From a virus, in IMG/VR virus record IMGVR_UViG_3300047557_002959, positions 1 through 40,966 of that record: a DNA stretch of 40,966 nucleotides. One strand, given 5' to 3'. Each line of letters begins with the position of its first letter. Within the stretch, counting starts at the first letter, position 1. A model generated the notes under the pieces. That model did no database searches and was not told where the DNA came from. It saw only the letters and a program-made list of their open reading frames with translations. This document shows, piece by piece, positions 3,490 through 40,625 of this stretch. Position numbers and translations under genes: made by a program.

Positions 3490-4465
3490 TGGTCATCCTT
3501 TTCGCTCCGACAGGCTTGGCACCTTCGTTCCAGAACATTACGTCTAGGTCGGCCTGTGTTGGTATGTAGAACATCTTGAAGCTGACTTGAACCTGCGCCC
3601 GCGTAGGGTTACCGTCCGGTCCGATGATGGTATTGAACGTAGGGCTCACGTCCGTTATCACGATCGAAGGGATGTAAAGGTAGTTGCCGATGTAGAGAGA
3701 AATGTTCCCCTCAATCGCGTTGACCATCTGCGAGCTGAGGTTAACCAGCGTGTCGTTAGTCGACGCCTTCAAGTCCTTGATGGTGTTGATGGGTACGTTG
3801 ACGAACGCAGACATGAGGCCGTCTTTGTTGATGGACTCGCTAACGCTGGTCACATTCTTGCTAATCGAACTAAGTAGTCCGGAGCCGCCTTCCCAAACAG
3901 ACTTGCCCATGCCTACGATACCACCACCTTCTTTGGATTCAGTAGTCGGTTTCTGCGGAGTAGGAGTAGAGGTAGTCTTCCTGCCACCTACCGGCGTCTT
4001 GAGCTTCTCGATGTTGATGTGGGGACCAGGAGATTCCAGCAAGCCCCCGCCGGTAGGATCCTTTGGCATAGTCAGGCGCAGAAGGTCCTTGATAGGCTTC
4101 ATTACCTCTAGGTACGAACTATGGGTGGCTTGAAAGATCAGCGGCATTTGGAACTGGACCTCGGTACCACCTTGCCACACCTGTGCGGTCATGGCCTGCG
4201 TGACCATGTTGACGCCAAACGCACGGGCTAGCGAACTTAGCCCAGGCATCATTTGGTTTAAACCCTGAGCGAACGGGGCTTCGTACTCGGCCTGAATGTC
4301 TAGGTTCACCTCTTCGGGCAAGTAGGCCTTGATAATGACCGCACCTTCTTGGCTCGGCGAACCTGCGCCATCGTTAGAGACGATCGTCACCTGGTACGGA
4401 TGGTTGACCGACTCGTCTCGAGTGAACCGTTGGGCAAAGGTAGAGGAGGTTGCTACGGTTGGCAT
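3482..4465 (-). CDS. Putative baseplate tail-tube initiator/cap protein
   Basis: A 327-residue protein without transmembrane segments. The N-terminal 120 residues are beta-rich (YQVTIVSNDGAG, then VIIKAYLPEEVNLDIQAEYE). A low-complexity Thr/Pro/Lys linker sits near residues 155-180. The C-terminus (ISLYIGNYLYIPSIVITDVS, then a PTRAQVQVSFKMFYIPTQADL segment) has the strand pattern seen in gp48/gp54-type tube-initiator proteins. Those proteins have a tube-like fold and start tube polymerisation on the hub. Its position between the cell-wall enzymes and gp53 fits. An SD (AGGATG) precedes the ATG. The role is inferred from pattern and context, so an unrelated baseplate protein remains possible. 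Confidence 0.5.
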   Translation of the reverse strand: MPTVATSSTFAQRFTRDESVNHPYQVTIVSNDGAGSPSQEGAVIIKAYLPEEVNLDIQAEYEAPFAQGLNQMMPGLSSLARAFGVNMVTQAMTAQVWQGGTEVQFQMPLIFQATHSSYLEVMKPIKDLLRLTMPKDPTGGGLLESPGPHINIEKLKTPVGGRKTTSTPTPQKPTTESKEGGGIVGMGKSVWEGGSGLLSSISKNVTSVSESINKDGLMSAFVNVPINTIKDLKASTNDTLVNLSSQMVNAIEGNISLYIGNYLYIPSIVITDVSPTFNTIIGPDGNPTRAQVQVSFKMFYIPTQADLDVMFWNEGAKPVGAKRMTNV

Positions 4466-4472
4466 GGTAGTA

Positions 4473-5672
4473 TCATCCTGTTAGAGCCAGAACATTGCCG
4501 TTGCTGGTTCGATAGTAATCGGAAGGCTGCTTCTTAGGCGAAGGGCCAGACAGAGCAACGCCTGAGGATTGTTGCGAGGCCTCTGTAGGCGCTATAGCTA
4601 CTTGCACAGGCTGCTTAGGCAAGCTGTCGAACGATACCGGTACGGCCTCGGTGTTGGCTACGGTAGTTTTTGCCGGCCCACCAGAGAACGTAGGTGCAGC
4701 GGCCGTAACCGAAGGCGAAGACTTAGCCGTATTATCTGGCAGCAAGACGGTCGTATCCGCAGCAGCCATTGTGACGGGCGTATTGGTCTGCTGTGCAAAC
4801 TTGAGGTACTGCTTACCTACCTTACCGTACAGAGTGGCGTACACCTCAGCCACTGTCTTAGGGACGCCCTTGGCCGTGAAAAAGATATTCTTGTTTGCCT
4901 TAGCTGCCCTAGGCATGACTTCGGCGGCGATCGCGTTAGGTGCGTCCTTCAAGGAGTCGAGCAATGTACGAGCGCCTGTAGCACCTAAGAAGAAGCCTGC
5001 GTAGACGTCAGTGACCGACGGCTCTTTCCCTAGTGTCTTTCTCAGGCTGCGAACGATGTCCCGGACGTAGCAAGCGCCTAGGATAGCGTTCTTCTCTGGG
5101 ACCTTGATGTCCCTGTTAGTAATGCCGTACTGCTTGCCGTATTTCTTTACCAGCTCTTGCCAGGTGCCCGACACCAACTGAAAGAGACCTAGCGCACTGG
5201 ACGTCTTGGCCTTGGCATTGACGTTGAACCGGGATTCCTGGTGAGCAATGGCCAGGAGCAGAGCCTTGTCTATGCCTACTACCTTGGCCGCATTGTCGAT
5301 AATAGACATTACCGGCTGGGTAGGCTCGGTGACCTGCAACTGATCGAGCTCTGCTTTGGACACTACCGGAGCAGAAGGGGCAGCCGCTGCCTGAGTCTGA
5401 TCTTTAGCCTCTACTGTCTCAGGGCCCAGCACCTTGGCTTTAATGTCTGCTAGGCTAGGCAGCTTGAGGTCGAAATCCGTCGAGGCCAAGAGCTTGGCTA
5501 CTAAAGCCGTGATGCCTGCAACACCAGCAGCAACACCAACCCAAGGGTTGATCTTGAAGGCGGACTCTTTCTTTTCTCGCAGCAGGTCGGTCAAGGTGCT
5601 GAACAACCCAGCCTCTTCTGCAATACTAGGATCGTGCAGCATCGTGGCCTTGGCGTCCGCAGCGGTCCACAT
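4473..5672 (-). CDS. Tail lytic transglycosylase (SLT domain)
   Basis: A 399-residue protein with a soluble lytic transglycosylase domain at about residues 120-280. The catalytic glutamate is E146 in AIAHQESRFN, followed by SALGLFQLVSGTW, the equivalent of the family GLMQ/LFQ motif. It should cleave the glycan between MurNAc and GlcNAc during DNA entry. A hydrophobic stretch at residues 44-64 (WVGVAAGVAGITALVAKLLA) may insert in a membrane or pack in the tail. The C-terminal 120 residues are low-complexity Ala/Pro/Ser/Thr-rich. The start overlaps the tape-measure stop (TAATG). With the M15 peptidase next door the tail carries both glycan- and peptide-cleaving activities. Confidence 0.85.
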   Translation of the reverse strand: MWTAADAKATMLHDPSIAEEAGLFSTLTDLLREKKESAFKINPWVGVAAGVAGITALVAKLLASTDFDLKLPSLADIKAKVLGPETVEAKDQTQAAAAPSAPVVSKAELDQLQVTEPTQPVMSIIDNAAKVVGIDKALLLAIAHQESRFNVNAKAKTSSALGLFQLVSGTWQELVKKYGKQYGITNRDIKVPEKNAILGACYVRDIVRSLRKTLGKEPSVTDVYAGFFLGATGARTLLDSLKDAPNAIAAEVMPRAAKANKNIFFTAKGVPKTVAEVYATLYGKVGKQYLKFAQQTNTPVTMAAADTTVLLPDNTAKSSPSVTAAAPTFSGGPAKTTVANTEAVPVSFDSLPKQPVQVAIAPTEASQQSSGVALSGPSPKKQPSDYYRTSNGNVLALTG

Positions 5673-18239: not shown

Positions 18240-18899
18240 GTGGGACCCGACACCGAGAACAAGGCAGAGAGTAAGGCAGAAGGGGGCACCAGCCCTTACC
18301 TAGTTACAAGTAACGTACCTCTAGATCGTATGGAGCCGTGGAATCCTTACAGGGGTTACGCCGCAGGCACACTAGGCGACAAAGTGCGCCTTGCCGTAGG
18401 TAGAATTCAGAAGGTAGCCCAGCTAGGCGCAATCTACGTAGGTCATTCTGGAGGCAAGGACTCCGATGCGGTAATGAGGCTGACGGAGATGGCCATGGGC
18501 CCGTACAGCCAGCATCTTGTGGTGCACACGATGAAAGACATTGTGCCAATGGAAGACCGAGGGCACTTGGCAGACAAGATGGCTAGGAAAGATTCGCCAA
18601 ATGCCAACCGACTGTTTATGGTGCCGGCTTCGGGTATGCAGGATTTTATCCGACGCACTCAGGTAGTGGCACAAGTAGACGGTACCCGACGAGACGAGTT
18701 CAGTCGTACCGATGGCCGAAGCACTAACCTGATCGTAGATGGCGTGGAACAATCCCGGGAAGAGATGACAGACTTTACGAAAGAAGGTCTGTTCGGAATT
18801 GCCTTCTGTTTCCCTATCTACGATTGGTCCGAGGTGGAGGTGTACAAGTTCCTCGCGGTCGAAGGGGTGCAGATCAGTCCGTCGTACTACACGACCTAA
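18240..18899 (+). CDS. PP-loop ATP pyrophosphatase, PAPS-reductase-like
   Basis: A 219-residue protein. The PP-loop (SGGKDSD) at residues 70-76 binds ATP, and a C-terminal YDWSEVEVYKFLA segment is the DW-type motif of the PAPS-reductase/sulfotransferase-like branch. The enzyme should adenylate an oxygen or sulfur atom on its substrate; family members include PAPS reductases, tRNA thiolases and DNA phosphorothioation DndC-like proteins. It lacks a C-terminal cysteine motif typical of PAPS reductase and is shorter than most. The start is GTG, with an AAGGAGGT SD. It leads a three-gene operon with no gap to the next gene (TAAATG). Which substrate it acts on cannot be told. Confidence 0.75.
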   Translation: MGPDTENKAESKAEGGTSPYLVTSNVPLDRMEPWNPYRGYAAGTLGDKVRLAVGRIQKVAQLGAIYVGHSGGKDSDAVMRLTEMAMGPYSQHLVVHTMKDIVPMEDRGHLADKMARKDSPNANRLFMVPASGMQDFIRRTQVVAQVDGTRRDEFSRTDGRSTNLIVDGVEQSREEMTDFTKEGLFGIAFCFPIYDWSEVEVYKFLAVEGVQISPSYYTT

Positions 18900-19286
18900 A
18901 TGTGGCAGGTGTGGGTAGGCCAGATAAAACCTAGTTCGGGGATAGTGAGAGCCAAAAGAATAGTCCTGAGGAAGAAGGTACTTCGTTGCGAAGTAGGTCA
19001 GGAGAAAGGCTCGGGGACTTGGGTAGAGATTCCGCTGGACGATCTTATACACATCACGACGTACGGTGACGTTAAGGATCGAGGGTACTACCAGGTGAGA
19101 TACTCGGACTACACCTACGATAACCGCGTGTTGATAATTAGTCCGTACAAACCCAGGACGAAGATAATTAAAGGTGTGCCGTTCTGGGAGGTGCGAGTAG
19201 ATGAGAGAAGTGTCGAGGGACTCGCCTACAAAATGCTCGTGCTGAAATCTAATTCGCAAGTCAATAAACAGGAGCGCCGCAAATGA
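18900..19286 (+). CDS. Unknown protein in the PP-loop operon
   Basis: A 128-residue basic protein starting at the base after the PP-loop stop codon. It is a mixed alpha/beta protein with several Trp/Tyr/Val strands (KIIKGVPFWEVRVDERSVEG, then MLVLKSNSQVNKQERRK at the end) and no cysteine pairs. The tight linkage and coupled start suggest it is made with the PP-loop enzyme and perhaps works with it. The end overlaps the next start by four bases (ATGA). Family not recognised. Confidence 0.6.
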   Translation: MWQVWVGQIKPSSGIVRAKRIVLRKKVLRCEVGQEKGSGTWVEIPLDDLIHITTYGDVKDRGYYQVRYSDYTYDNRVLIISPYKPRTKIIKGVPFWEVRVDERSVEGLAYKMLVLKSNSQVNKQERRK

Positions 19287-19726
19287 GTAAGAGCACCGCA
19301 GTTGCAGATGTGAAGAAGCAGGCGAGCGTTTGGGTAACCTTTGCTTTTGAAGGTATCCATTGTTATCCGGAGGCCGCCACCCACCCGAACCTGGAAGACG
19401 TCAGCTTCCTAGGGTCGCCGCACAGGCATCAGTTCAAGGTCAAGCTGACCGTGCCGGTTACCCACTTTAACCGAGATGTGGAATTCATTCAGTTGCAGCG
19501 GGCAGTGGTAAAGGTTTTCTACGCCAGGGTGTCCGGTGGTCGGAAAATTCAAGTAGGGGAACCGCTTCAACTAGGAGCAATGTCCTGCGAAATGATGGCG
19601 GAAGATGTCTACACCGCGTTCCTGGTCGCGTTAGCCAAGTTGAAAGGCACTCGGAATGCTGTGCATCCTGCGACAGTGGAAGTTTCGGAAGATGGCGAGA
19701 ACGGAGCGACCGTAGTGTTCGGCTAG
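19283..19726 (+). CDS. Unknown phage protein with HRHxF and SCEMMAE motifs
   Basis: A 147-residue protein. It has the segment FEGIHCYPEAATHPNLEDVS, then FLGSPHRHQFKVKLTVPVTH, and later GAMSCEMMAEDV. The HxH plus late Cys/Glu pattern suggests a metal site or a small ligand site, faintly like T-fold/QueD-type enzymes. I recall similar proteins in other phages but know no function. The overlap with the previous gene indicates operon membership and coupling, and the terminator after it ends the operon. Confidence 0.65.
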   Translation: MSKSTAVADVKKQASVWVTFAFEGIHCYPEAATHPNLEDVSFLGSPHRHQFKVKLTVPVTHFNRDVEFIQLQRAVVKVFYARVSGGRKIQVGEPLQLGAMSCEMMAEDVYTAFLVALAKLKGTRNAVHPATVEVSEDGENGATVVFG

Positions 19727-19748
19727 TCTGATCGCAGAATCTGCTCAA

Positions 19749-19779
19749 GAGAAAGGGGCCTCTAATGGGCCCCTTTCTC
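19749..19779. terminator. Bidirectional hairpin between convergent operons
   Basis: Perfect 12-bp stem GAGAAAGGGGCC / GGCCCCTTTCTC (19749-19760 and 19768-19779) with a 7-base loop. It lies between the end of the plus-strand operon (19726) and the end of the minus-strand glycosyltransferase operon (19796). It should stop transcription from both sides, though neither side has a long U-run. Confidence 0.8.
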
Positions 19780-19795
19780 ACGGCTGTACGGCGCG

Positions 19796-20992
19796 TCAGC
19801 CGCGGAAGCTGTGCCTCGAATCTCTTTCGATGGTCCGAGCCATTATGCTCATAGGTTGAAAGCAATAGTGTTTAGCCCTATCCCGACAAATATCTCGCCA
19901 GTTACCGTGAGGGGTCGGCTTCGGCGACCTATAGGTGTTCGCTTCCAGGAGAACTTGTATCTTGCTAACTACCTGGTCCTCGTCATCGAACAAGAACGCC
20001 CTCTCCCAACCAACCAGTTCAGGGTGAGACAACGAGTTGCGTACCAAAGGGTAGCACTCGTACATCATAGCCTCCACTATGCAGTACCCGAAATTCTCTT
20101 CGATACTGGTCGAGAGCATAACCGCACTCTCTTCCAAAAGTGCGTGGTACTCGGCCTTGCTCAACCCTGCCTTGATAGTGATGATCCCGTCTGACTCCAT
20201 CTCGCGGGCAAGTTTAAGGAGCCACGTCTTGTTGGACGTGAAATGGGGGCGAGAAGTGCACACCACAATCTCGATCGTAGGGTCTTCCCGTTTGAGAATG
20301 TATGCCAAGTCGAGACTGAGGTTAGGCCTCTTCTCCCAGTCGAACCTGTTAGGTAGCACCACTTGCCGCTTCTTAGCAGCAGGCTGGCCCTCTTGAAGAA
20401 AATCGTTCCTGGCGTAGTCACTTTTGAAGAGGGGATTGCCGGACACCACCAGCTTCGAGGCTAACGCCTCTTGATCTTTCTGAGGTAGGTTCAACGGCAG
20501 CAGACGCCTCTCGATGAAGGCTCGCTTGTGGTAATCAGAACCGACAAAGACGGTGTCGCAAGCCGCAAGCCAGCCGACCTCCGTGAACCTCTGGTAAGGT
20601 GCTGCAACAGCAAAAGCATCCTCTATCGTGTAGGACGCCGCGTGAAGGAATCCGTAGATCAGGATTGGCACCTTGTTGAGCTGAGACAAGAGGCGAAGGC
20701 TCTCGATGCCCCAGAACTCTATATCGGAGACGAAGAAAATGTCCCCAGGTCGGATCAGTTTTTCGCGGAACATCTTCGCAACCTTCTGCATCTGACTATT
20801 CTTGTAGTAGATGGTGCTGTTGATGTCCAGGAACGTCCCTACCTCAACGTGGTCGGTAAGAGTCTCGCCTGAGATGTTGTAGGCCTCGATACCGTCGATG
20901 TGATCCTCAAAAGCTTTCGGCAAGTGGTTGTACCAGGACTCCGTGTATCTCTCCGGCAAAGGCTCGATAGGGAGGATGTGAAGTTTCGTCAT
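19796..20992 (-). CDS. Glycosyltransferase, GT-B/GT4-like
   Basis: A 398-residue protein starting MTKLHILPIEPLPERYTESW. The ATG at 20992 overlaps the previous stop (ATGA); a longer open frame upstream is not used. The C-terminal half has GT-B features: KLVVSGNPLF, then RQVVLPNRFDWEKRPNLSLD (donor-loop opening), IVVCTSRPHF, and SIEENFGYCIVEAMMYECYP, the E-x7-E-type motif with family GT4 appearance. It should transfer a sugar from a nucleotide donor. Candidate acceptors are DNA bases, a small thiol-like molecule or surface glycans. Its neighbour is a PIG-L deacetylase, the same pairing seen for MshA/MshB and BshA/BshB and in GPI synthesis. That makes a GlcNAc transfer followed by deacetylation attractive, as inference. 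Confidence 0.8.
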   Translation of the reverse strand: MTKLHILPIEPLPERYTESWYNHLPKAFEDHIDGIEAYNISGETLTDHVEVGTFLDINSTIYYKNSQMQKVAKMFREKLIRPGDIFFVSDIEFWGIESLRLLSQLNKVPILIYGFLHAASYTIEDAFAVAAPYQRFTEVGWLAACDTVFVGSDYHKRAFIERRLLPLNLPQKDQEALASKLVVSGNPLFKSDYARNDFLQEGQPAAKKRQVVLPNRFDWEKRPNLSLDLAYILKREDPTIEIVVCTSRPHFTSNKTWLLKLAREMESDGIITIKAGLSKAEYHALLEESAVMLSTSIEENFGYCIVEAMMYECYPLVRNSLSHPELVGWERAFLFDDEDQVVSKIQVLLEANTYRSPKPTPHGNWRDICRDRAKHYCFQPMSIMARTIERDSRHSFRG

Positions 20993-21501
20993 GTTGGCTC
21001 CGGTGTAGGAAAAGGTGAAGGTAGTTCGATGTCGTTTTGGAATTCTTCCGGGTGTGTTCTCTGAAACGAGAGTCGTGTAGCACAAAGCACCGTAGGTCCT
21101 CGGCTAGTCTCTTGACTGAATTTGATTTGGTCTAGCGGCTCTAGACCCCAGAGTGAAGGTTTGCCTTCTACGTGAATCATGAACCCTAGAGAAGGGTACT
21201 GGCGTCGAAGTTCATACCAGGATTCACTGTAGTCGGTTACCTCGAGAGTAACCAGTAACCGAGATTTCATATCCAGAAACGGACCGATATACTCACCGAA
21301 AAAGTGAGGAGTGATCTGATTGGTGTGGTCTGATATGTAGAAATGAGAAGCGCCGTGCTGGTTAGCGTAGATGTGCAGCCATCGCCCGAGCGCACAAGCA
21401 CTCTCATGGTGATGGAGAAACGCCTGCAGCAGCTCTGCGTAGCTCATGAAAATCGTCTTGATACCTCGCAAGCGTCCTTCTACTTCTATTCCTATCTTCA
21501 T
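20989..21501 (-). CDS. Unknown protein between glycosyltransferase and PIG-L genes
   Basis: A 170-residue protein starting MKIGIEVEGRLRGIKTIFMS. It is alpha/beta, with HIYANQHGASHFYISDH, SRLLVTLEVTDYSESW and PLDQIKFSQETSRG as notable stretches. Several His residues lie in the N-terminal half but there is no cysteine cluster. The middle position in a coupled three-gene set (12 bases after the PIG-L gene and overlapping the glycosyltransferase start) suggests a partner in the same pathway. I have no firm family assignment. SD GGGG is about ten bases upstream. Confidence 0.6.
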   Translation of the reverse strand: MKIGIEVEGRLRGIKTIFMSYAELLQAFLHHHESACALGRWLHIYANQHGASHFYISDHTNQITPHFFGEYIGPFLDMKSRLLVTLEVTDYSESWYELRRQYPSLGFMIHVEGKPSLWGLEPLDQIKFSQETSRGPTVLCATRLSFQRTHPEEFQNDIELPSPFPTPEPT

Positions 21502-21512
21502 TTACATCCCCT

Positions 21513-22400
21513 TTAAACACTCACTGACCAAGAGGAACCGTCTTCTGCCCTGGCCGTAACCTTCAAGGACTCGACCTGCCCTAAGGGCAAGCTGAACAGC
21601 AGTTCAGGATGAATCTCTTCCACTATGTATCTGAGGTTGGGTATAGTGACGGCCCTCCCGTACTCGGATAACTTCACGGAAGATTGCCTCAGCACCGCGT
21701 CCAGGTTAGCCTCTAGCTCTGAGAGCAAGCCCCAGTCTTTCAGAGAAACTTCGGCGTCAATGTAGATGCCGGAAGTGATCTTCCGATCCGTATCTGGGTA
21801 GCTACTTAGAACCACGTGAACGTAGCGAGTGAGTCTCGCCGCTGACCTAGTATTGTCCCGACTGTAGCCCTCAAACAGAAAGTATTTCTCATTCTGAAAC
21901 AATGAGAACTGGGAAGGGTAATTCTGGAGCAAGGCTTCTTTCTTCTGGCTCGCAATGTGCGAGGGCAAAGGGACAACAGACGGGGAAGACATGTCTATCG
22001 AGTAGAACTCCAGCTGTACCTTCGAGGCACCTCCGGCTGTTAGCCTGTGTGCGACCTTCCGAGCCGTCCAATTTACCATCTTGTGATGATGGTGCACATC
22101 GGTAATGTCAGGGACCAACCAGATAGTATTCGCCGTATGGTACTGGCGCATAATCCGGTGTATGGCGTTGTCCAGAGACATCATCGACAACATCGCATCC
22201 GGAGCGTGGGAGAATGTCAGGAGGAATCCGTAGAATTGACTTGCGCGTATAGCCTCTTGCTGCCGCTCTTCCGTAAGATCGAAGAAGTAGTGGACTCCGC
22301 TAACGTGGCCGGTCAGGAGTTTGGTGTAGCACCCTATCATTTCGTCGTCGACGTGGGGCGCCAAGATTTGGTACTCCAGTAGGTCGTTGTCCGCAGACAT
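21513..22400 (-). CDS. PIG-L/LmbE-like de-N-acetylase
   Basis: A 295-residue protein. The PIG-L signature PHVDDE occurs at residues 15-20 (H16, D18, D19), with a second metal-binding His cluster in DVHHHHK near residues 101-107. These match the zinc ligands of MshB, BshB and PIG-L, which remove acetyl from GlcNAc linked to an acceptor. The catalytic Asp after the first His is present. About 120 extra residues at the C-terminus (from SSYPDTDRKITSGIYIDAEV) form a separate alpha/beta section not typical of the family. SD AAGGAG precedes the ATG. Together with the glycosyltransferase it suggests a two-step sugar modification. Confidence 0.85.
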   Translation of the reverse strand: MSADNDLLEYQILAPHVDDEMIGCYTKLLTGHVSGVHYFFDLTEERQQEAIRASQFYGFLLTFSHAPDAMLSMMSLDNAIHRIMRQYHTANTIWLVPDITDVHHHHKMVNWTARKVAHRLTAGGASKVQLEFYSIDMSSPSVVPLPSHIASQKKEALLQNYPSQFSLFQNEKYFLFEGYSRDNTRSAARLTRYVHVVLSSYPDTDRKITSGIYIDAEVSLKDWGLLSELEANLDAVLRQSSVKLSEYGRAVTIPNLRYIVEEIHPELLFSLPLGQVESLKVTARAEDGSSWSVSV

Positions 22401-38919: not shown

Positions 38920-39384
38920 ATGACCACGAAAACGACACCTCAAAGCCTGATCGCCGCAATAGAGCACTACCAGTGCCCCAGCTGTGCTAACGGCACCGAC
39001 CCAAAGCCCTGTTGAGAGTATTGTGCCTCCGACACAGGGTGTACCTCCCATTGCCCTGGTACTCTGGACGCAGGAGCCCGCCTCCTTTTCCTCGGCCTTC
39101 CGAGAGGCTTTACTTTGGTTGGCTCTGCAGGAGCAGGTTCGCGTCAAGCGAAACTAGAGATTTTCGAGTCGACGGATCACCTCTACCGAAACTATCCGAC
39201 GGTGAAGACCATGTTCTCGCTTCCTATCTGGAAGCACTGGGACGACCAAGGTAATACCATAATGCGTTGGTACAGCCCTCGCACCAACGTAGGCTGGTCA
39301 CTGGTGATCTTAAGGGGGGACGCTCGAGAGGACTTCCTTTACGCTCGCGAGATAACTGCGGAAGAATTAAAGGACATGGACTAA
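38920..39384 (+). pseudogene. Cys-rich protein interrupted by an in-frame TGA
   Basis: From ATG at 38920 (SD CGGAGAG) a frame runs to TGA at 39013-39015, after MTTKTTPQSLIAAIEHYQCP and SCANGTDPKPC, then continues open in the same frame to 39384. After the TGA come EYCASDTGCTSHCPGTLDAG, then LFLGLPRGFTLVGSAG, and later TMFSLPIWKHWDDQGN, a full-looking 154-codon protein. I recall phage proteins with the same order of Cys-rich start, FLGLPxGF and VWKY-type middle. The TGA may be a nonsense mutation, a read-through site or a sequencing error. The 3' part alone could start at a TTG at 39115, but it has no SD. Confidence 0.55.
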
Positions 39385-39420
39385 CATCCGAACACTCTTA
39401 CTAACATCCGAACACTCTTA
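39381..39420 (+). repeat. 20-bp perfect tandem repeat
   Basis: CTAACATCCGAACACTCTTA at 39381-39400 and again at 39401-39420. The first copy includes the stop codon of the previous gene; the second precedes the SD of the radical SAM gene. Confidence 0.95.
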
Positions 39421-39432
39421 AAGGAATTTTCG

Positions 39433-40407
39433 ATGAAATTCACAAATCCATACGGACCGAATACAACGGTGCTTCTCCCAGGTAGTTGCAACGCCAAATG
39501 CGACTTCTGCTTCTGGGACCGAAAGAGCGCAAAGATCAAACCTCCCGAAGACTACCTCGACAAGGTGTTCTCTGTCCTGAGCAACTTGCCGTCCCAGTGT
39601 CGGACGCTTTCTATCAGCGGAGGTGAGCCTACGTTGAGCCCCTGGCTGCCGAAGTTTCTGGCCCGCCTGAGTGTGTGGCGCCGGAGCCACCACTTGGATC
39701 GTGTAGTCCTGACTACGCACGGGGGCAACCTGCTTTCAAAGATCGGAAGCGTCGCCTCAGTGGTCGACCACATCAACATCAGCCGACACGCAATCACGGA
39801 CGAGGACAACTGGACGATCTTCAAGACCGACAAGATACCGGACAGTATGAATCTGAGCCTCCTTATTAGCAGGGTGCACGACTTAGGCACTTGCGACGTC
39901 ACTTTGAATTGCGTGGTGCCGCGGGACGTTACCTCCAAGTTTTGCAAAGACTACATCAAGTTTGCCAAGGACGTGGGAGCAGATGCGGTTAGCTTTCGTA
40001 AGGTCGCGAGCGACGTGACGTCCACGAAAGCTGAGCGAAAGTTCGCCGAGAAATACGGAGTAGGGTCGGAGACGAAGTGCCCTGTTTGCCGCGGCATGGA
40101 GCAAATGGTCAAAGGGTTTCCTGTACGCTGGAAAGGCTCCGTGGAAGAACCCTCCCTTGAAACGAAAGGTATCTACGAGGTGGTTATCCATCCTGACGGT
40201 CTTGCGTATTCGGATTGGGGACGCACGACCTTGATACCCGCCCTGAACAAAAAAGCTCCTCCGAAAAGAAAGACTACAGCCGTTCGAGTCCATGGTGGTT
40301 GCCAGGGCCGGAGTAGTGGTAGAGGCGGCTGCGGTGGCAATGGCGGAGGATGCGGGGGTAGAGGAGGCTCCCCTGGTTGCGGATCCCGAGGGATAGGAGG
40401 CTGCTAA
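39433..40407 (+). CDS. Radical SAM protein with Gly/Cys-rich tail
   Basis: A 324-residue protein. The radical SAM cluster motif CNAKCDFC (C19, C23, C26; CxxxCxxC) is followed by ISGGEPT at residues 61-67, the SAM-binding GGE-type motif. A second Cys pair (CPVC) near residue 216 may bind an auxiliary cluster. Residues 287-324 form a tail of Gly, Arg, Ser and Cys, with Cys spaced 7-10 residues apart (C290, C300, C307, C316, C324). Such a tail is unusual for a stand-alone enzyme and resembles a microcin B17-type Gly-rich peptide. The enzyme could act on a nucleotide, peptide or its own tail. SD AAGGAATT. The gene end overlaps the next start (TAATG). Confidence 0.8.
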   Translation: MKFTNPYGPNTTVLLPGSCNAKCDFCFWDRKSAKIKPPEDYLDKVFSVLSNLPSQCRTLSISGGEPTLSPWLPKFLARLSVWRRSHHLDRVVLTTHGGNLLSKIGSVASVVDHINISRHAITDEDNWTIFKTDKIPDSMNLSLLISRVHDLGTCDVTLNCVVPRDVTSKFCKDYIKFAKDVGADAVSFRKVASDVTSTKAERKFAEKYGVGSETKCPVCRGMEQMVKGFPVRWKGSVEEPSLETKGIYEVVIHPDGLAYSDWGRTTLIPALNKKAPPKRKTTAVRVHGGCQGRSSGRGGCGGNGGGCGGRGGSPGCGSRGIGGC

Positions 40408-40625
40408 TGGCGACTTCTCGATCCCCTCTTTCTAGGAAAAGTTTATCGGAGTTTGTGCGGCAGCAGAGGCAGCTGGTCGCTATGCACGAAGGTGCGAAGC
40501 GGGCTGCTCTCGCAGAGCACCGTAACCATGATGCGGCGAGAAGCGATGGCTTGATGCGAGGCATCTTACAGGTGACAAACGATCTTGTCGAAGAATATGG
40601 TTTGACCCTTGAGGAGGAGACATGA
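40407..40625 (+). CDS. Small basic protein after the radical SAM gene
   Basis: A 72-residue protein starting MATSRSPLSRKSLSEFVRQQ. It is basic in the first part and helical throughout, ending VEEYGLTLEEET. Start overlaps the radical SAM stop (TAATG) and is preceded by TAGGAGG. It is co-expressed with the radical SAM gene and might be a partner or substrate, which is speculative. No cysteine. Confidence 0.6.
   Translation: MATSRSPLSRKSLSEFVRQQRQLVAMHEGAKRAALAEHRNHDAARSDGLMRGILQVTNDLVEEYGLTLEEET

Follow-up and report, generated by a model that had tools for sequence, protein, structure and literature searches.

A phage radical SAM enzyme carrying a cysteine- and glycine-rich tail as a candidate self-modifying RiPP-like system

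The radical SAM gene, its parts and its surroundings

The window, the whole stretch of 40,966 bases analyzed here, is an entire IMG/VR virus record whose genes include those for phage tail sheath, major head and baseplate. Near these structural genes (18240–22400) it also encodes a PAPS-reductase-like protein, a glycosyltransferase and a PIG-L-like deacetylase. On the plus strand, positions 39433..40407 encode a 324-aa radical SAM protein with a fused C-terminal Cys/Gly tail; the gene starts with ATG, its stop lies within these coordinates, and AAAGGA at 39420..39425 (plus strand), read from the sequence, is its probable ribosome-binding site. Immediately 5' of that site, a 20-nt unit occurs twice in tandem without a mismatch (39380–39419). 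Downstream, the gene is followed by a co-translated neighbor on the same strand, a 72-aa ORF (40407..40625) whose start overlaps the radical SAM stop as TAATG. The original prediction described this ORF as small, basic and coupled to the enzyme: the coupling stands, given the overlap, but the basic character does not, as the ORF encodes about 10 K/R against 11 D/E by hand count. Near neutral, Cys-free and without a family at cut-off, it is not the basic partner that had been proposed, and its lack of cysteine also ruled it out as a precursor.

The protein exceeds the cut-off of the Pfam Radical_SAM model (PF04055; 33.0 bits versus 29.5), and five cysteines fall within its last 38 residues, bearing out the prediction of a radical SAM enzyme with a Cys-rich tail. 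Many NCBIfam radical SAM families match it weakly, and all the matches listed are below their curated cut-offs: MoaA (TIGR02666; 48.1 bits versus 284.05) and viperin (NF038283; 41.8 versus 180) are far below, as is HxsC (29.2 bits), and no known RiPP-maturase family in NCBIfam reached its cut-off. The folded core (residues 1–264; 39433..40224, plus strand) consists of a radical SAM barrel, which starts directly at the N-terminus, and a short Twitch-like C-terminal part ending in a conserved DW. AlphaFold modeled the whole protein at a mean pLDDT of 87.8, with block means of 78–99 across the core and values under 50 for residues 289–319 and 321–324. The best solved-fold matches of the model were MoaA (Z 18.9), SuiB (17.9) and viperin (17.3), with SkfB and CteB lower. 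The model combines a confident MoaA/SuiB-like core with a disordered tail.

Two cysteine motifs mark this core. The CX3CX2C motif (C19, C23 and C26; 39487..39510, plus strand) of the SAM-binding [4Fe-4S] cluster has Cys at each of its three positions in 45/45 rows of our alignment of relatives, and motif and model together support a core predicted to bind [4Fe-4S] and SAM and to generate the 5'-deoxyadenosyl radical. Toward the end of the core, a CPVC motif (C216 and C219; 40078..40089, plus strand) provides candidate auxiliary-cluster ligands. MoaA has three auxiliary-cluster cysteines; of these only the CxxC is conserved in the Twitch-like region here, and no counterpart of the third was seen in the alignment.

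A linker that varies between relatives (residues 265–286; 40225..40290, plus strand) leads to the Cys/Gly tail (residues 287–324; 40291..40404, plus strand), the proposed substrate core, which has a pLDDT of about 42 and is of a conserved kind. Within these 38 Gly-rich residues the five cysteines (290, 300, 307, 316 and 324) are spaced 10, 7, 9 and 8 residues apart. The excess is modest by itself relative to the Cys rate of the protein's own core (binomial P = 0.0065) and larger relative to a generic 1.1% rate (binomial P = 6e-5); because a single-protein excess is only modest, it is conservation across relatives that places the tail above chance. Recent DNA repeat expansion was rejected as its origin, since the Gly codons of its five Gly-Cys steps are mixed and no direct repeat of at least 14 nt was found within it. 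No internal ribosome-binding site or start was seen before the tail in the window gene.

Relatives carry the tail fused or on an adjoining small protein

Searching with the window protein (P0001) by tblastn returned 49 phage records at 23–33% identity, most of them from jumbo phages of Erwinia, Dickeya and Yersinia, and 7 of the 7 annotated proteins among them that were read to their stop end in a Cys tail (e.g., ...GCQYRTVGCSYGESESAGGCSFRSPGSCSF). Five annotated jumbo-phage homologs (L003, L004, L005, L008 and L009; L-numbers denote homolog loci) have an extra region of ~95 residues (MKxIKHTFRLTDLV..) before the barrel. Alignment- or sequence-driven scans of viral contigs gave 20, 20, 6, 57 and 13 mutually overlapping loci, and a genome-contig scan gave 4; a single-sequence viral-contig scan with P0001 returned 23 stretches, with no relative among them. 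All 40 loci L011–L050 (21 distinct C-terminal regions) have at least two C-terminal cysteines, and the nearest relatives, L052, L057 and L076 (60–63% identity), end in ...GCGSGGGGCGGGGGCGSGGGGGCGSLERRGC, ...GGCGGGGGGVGGC and ...GGGCGGGGCGRRSRC. At L084 (5917–6825), an in-frame TGA interrupts the homolog. Beyond weak matches, no neighbor gene is common to the closest relatives of the window.

To place these loci, we used an alignment (A6) of 45 hand-picked representative rows, which takes in 20 of the 57 loci from the largest viral-contig scan and leaves out L103–L117, near-copies, the broken-frame L084 and L098–L100/L102. In the resulting tree, 39/45 rows form one side with support of 100/100, hereafter the tail clade. 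The original prediction had asked whether the tail is conserved, and in this clade 32/39 rows have it fused, as a variable linker followed by 2–6 Cys with the last Cys 0–5 residues from the stop; tail-less relatives or random low-complexity ends, which would have spoken for a functionless repeat, are not what the clade shows, with L062 and L070 as exceptions. Two cysteines are present in 17 of the fused rows, three in 3, four in 8, five in 3 and six in 1, mostly spaced 5–10 residues apart (range 4 to 15, with one spacing of 51). L023 and L024, 2 of these 32 rows, have two tail Cys each but fail the strict Gly+Ser test described below, and L053 has an internal array of seven Cys followed by 80 residues. 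Both a tail of its own and an adjacent tail ORF are missing in L070 and in L062, which has a single terminal Cys; a search for a distant partner across the whole L070 contig and 20,000 of the 20,354 bases of the L062 contig found none worth following, the L070 contig giving one chance-like 25-aa match not adjacent to the enzyme.

The CPVC-type CxxC goes together with the tail: both cysteines are present in 38/39 tail-clade rows, the exception being L011, which has a tail and only one Cys of the pair, and in 0/6 rows of the tail-less clade L088–L101, which lacks tail, partner and CxxC pair alike. As a control, 15 other radical SAM loci (L103–L117, several of them near-copies and L105 a 54-residue fragment) had tails in 0/15. 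The tail motif also follows the enzyme clade. C-x-aromatic (C-x-F/Y/W) occurs at 39/39 jumbo-phage tail cysteines that have a +2 residue, versus 2/37 elsewhere, although the jumbo rows (L013–L030) come from related phages and the 39/39 are not 39 independent events. Some relatives' tails read RCGY or RCGF, which resembles the loop of class III ribonucleotide reductase; we rejected a glycyl-radical loop reading, as relatives also place S, N, T, D, E, H, R, V or Q directly after the Cys. The enzyme-tail architecture is real, conserved and unusual.

Four tail-clade rows (L056, L083, L085 and L065) are split, each pairing a tail-less enzyme with an immediately adjoining same-strand tail ORF of 29–93 aa. 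Downstream of the enzyme lie a 65-aa ORF within 3 nt in L056 (end VGCGSGGCGHGSPARSCGSGGC), a 29-aa ORF in L083 (end PGCGGGGGCGNS) and an overlapping ORF of 57–60 aa in L085 (end YGGGCHVFRGCGS); the 93-aa partner of L065 lies upstream and ends in SNSCYYFGWGC. A distant huge-phage clade (L098, L100, L102, L007 and L137) likewise has a tail-less enzyme, directly after an 86–111-aa protein with a Cys/Gly/Ser tail (e.g., DDGCGRGGYPRSSC). These huge-phage partners have a common N-terminal region and a varying end, in which the last Cys is invariant in 7/7 aligned. Exceptions are L135, with one Cys, and L139, whose two-Cys end is below the Gly/Ser threshold; no tail was seen near the enzyme in L134 (near L006) or L140. 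A separate precursor-like protein, with an N-terminal segment and a Cys core, thus stands beside the enzyme in the split relatives only, and in the window the core is fused.

To compare adjacency with background, we applied a tail test devised once the first split loci were known, whose Gly+Ser threshold, initially 7, was lowered to 6 when the huge-phage partners first showed. It was passed by 9/47 ORFs adjoining a tail-less enzyme versus 6/945 non-adjacent same-strand ORFs of the same loci (Fisher P 2e-9, in which the kinship of the loci overstates independence), and a partner passing the strict test was found at 9/21 tail-less loci. When the split partners and small neighbors were searched against Pfam (ten) and NCBIfam (nine), no small protein matched at cut-off; the N-terminus of the L137 partner came below, at 23.4 bits to Stealth_CR4 versus a cut-off of 27.4.

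The huge-phage loci have further features. A conserved 43–60-aa protein (..FxxAVAxATxxExxxGAACGQLSxI..), possibly a second partner, adjoins the split enzymes of L098 (6853–7002), L100 (6849–6980), L102 (5897–6028) and L139 (2798–2980), with no Pfam or NCBIfam match at cut-off for those of L098 and L102. L102 has tandem paralogous partners before one enzyme (4327–4665 and 4683–5018), the first with the last Cys only, and in L098 and L100 a second radical SAM protein, RlmN-like by our reading of its motif, is encoded directly upstream of the partner gene (4846–5631 in both).

Fusion or fission happened more than once, because the three rows labeled as split in the tree occupy three separate places: L085 pairs with fused L081 (support 97/98), L083 groups with L054, L059 and L062 (99/92), and L056 lies elsewhere with weak support. 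L065 is labeled "none" in the tree, its upstream partner having been found only later. In fused L077 and L060, a leader-like helix (CAAGGAGGAGTTATG and AAGGAGGGGATGTG) comes just after an in-frame start that has a strong ribosome-binding sequence; in the model of L077 this helix (residues 288–308) is fairly confident and the tail disordered. We take this internal start as a fusion scar, or as a route to a separate peptide as well.

A proposed built-in substrate and the competing readings of the tail

That the tail sits on a separate neighboring small protein in several relatives suggests that in the window it is a built-in substrate that would be modified by its own enzyme. The original prediction of an enzyme and a candidate substrate-like tail in one polypeptide is supported in that relatives keep the tail and several carry it on an adjacent small ORF. 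We consider it probable, with real room for doubt, that the gene product is a peptide-modifying radical SAM enzyme bearing its own substrate at the C-terminus, a RiPP-like pair acting in cis here and split in relatives. This reading is supported by the conserved kind of tail, the split pairs, the adjacency contrast, the tree placement, the internal starts of fused L060 and L077, the clade-specific motif, the CxxC, and the predicted disorder with the SuiB match. Counted against it are the loci without a tail pair (L062, L070, L134/L006, L140, L135 and L088–L101), the failure to reach any maturase cut-off, the fact that no protease, transporter or recognition domain was seen, and the capacity that 2–6 Cys with Gly could also have to bind metal.

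Mechanistically, the disordered tail would fold back, or reach a neighboring molecule, so that its Cys motifs enter the active site, where the 5'-deoxyadenosyl radical would modify residues of each motif. The conserved CxxC may carry an auxiliary cluster that is short of ligands, leaving room for a tail Cys to bind. In MoaA and the sactisynthase CteB, the auxiliary cluster leaves a site free for the substrate, which in CteB occupies it through a peptide Cys (PMC6231123); streptosactin (GggA/GggB), a radical SAM product, has Cys-Ser and Cys-Gly S-C(alpha) bonds (PMC8172795). From these two precedents we infer that the enzyme would crosslink the Cys motifs of its own tail, most likely through a thioether, or another crosslink, that joins Cys to a Gly or Ser close by; in jumbo phages with C-x-F/Y, the crosslink would run from Cys to the +2 aromatic residue instead. 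An S-C(alpha) thioether specifically is a tentative suggestion, and we would sooner doubt it than rely on it. In split relatives, the tail sits on a small protein that has an N-terminal segment of its own, so the reaction would run in trans in those relatives but in cis in the window. Because no export or protease gene was seen beside the enzyme gene, the tail, once modified, would probably act within the infected cell.

Among the other readings, the tail could be part of the enzyme, its cysteines completing an auxiliary iron-sulfur cluster with the core CxxC while a small molecule or a macromolecule of the host serves as the actual substrate. The core's two C-terminal cysteines (C216 and C219) are one fewer than the three of MoaA, the fused tails have a minimum of two, and L088–L101 lack both CxxC and tail, all of which would suit such a ligand role. 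However, a cluster ligand fits poorly with a Cys number that ranges over 2–6 (and reaches 7 in L053's internal array), with spacings of 4 to 15 and one of 51, and with a tail in L011 beside only one CxxC cysteine; in nine loci the ligands would have to come from a separate 29–111-aa protein, and ligation does not need C-x-aromatic. We regard this as unlikely, if still the strongest competitor.

The variation in repeat number, the motif switch between clades and the carriage of the tail by a separate protein are also ill-suited to a tail serving as a flexible gate or redox arm, moving into the active site while another substrate is turned over. Such arms have precedent in the C-terminal glycines of MoaA and the Cys arm of ribonucleotide reductase, which enter the active site during turnover, and the best fold match to MoaA and the disorder of the tail are consistent with one; we nevertheless give this reading little credence. 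Equally improbable, in our judgment, is a metal- or nucleic-acid-binding low-complexity extension unconnected with catalysis: the window tail is rich in Gly, Arg, Ser and Cys and disordered, as such an extension would be, yet the tail accompanies this enzyme in fused and split form alike, and the jumbo-phage tails obey the C-x-aromatic rule.

Comparison with known systems

If the built-in substrate reading is true, borosins would have a cis-acting radical SAM counterpart, and phages would widely carry a modification system of the RiPP type, among them cultured jumbo phages of Erwinia, Dickeya and Yersinia that allow a direct test. The fused form would offer a single-protein assay for radical SAM modification, and the cis and trans relatives a natural series for precursor-enzyme fusion and separation. 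Whether they amount to a novel phage-borne RiPP-like class is, to us, evenly balanced: a self-modifying radical SAM enzyme with its core in cis, present in small phage contigs as well as in jumbo and huge phages, with several cis/trans switches and a Cys motif (C-G-x or C-x-aromatic) that changes with clade. Our survey of the open-access literature (most subscription journals and preprints fall outside it) turned up neither a phage radical SAM RiPP nor a precursor fused in cis to a radical SAM enzyme.

The sactipeptide and ranthipeptide systems (e.g., GggA/GggB and CteA/CteB) share with the phage system the pairing of a radical SAM enzyme with a small neighboring protein that combines leader and core and contains Cys, Gly and Ser. 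By contrast, the phage core is mostly fused to the enzyme, which has the CxxC only and not a full SPASM domain, falls below every maturase-model cut-off and is phage-borne, with no protease or exporter seen. In both sequence and fold, MoaA and viperin rank among the closest matches to the phage core, yet its scores are far below their family cut-offs. Borosins (OphMA) combine enzyme and core in one self-modifying polypeptide, and split bacterial forms of the family exist (PMC11285071). The likeness is one of architecture only, with the enzyme fused to the core in 32/39 rows, whereas borosin enzymes are methyltransferases acting on backbone nitrogen and the phage protein has a radical SAM fold. 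By the tests listed here, then, the phage protein is not a borosin, a MoaA or a viperin, and would work like a radical SAM RiPP system and, in its fused arrangement, like borosins.
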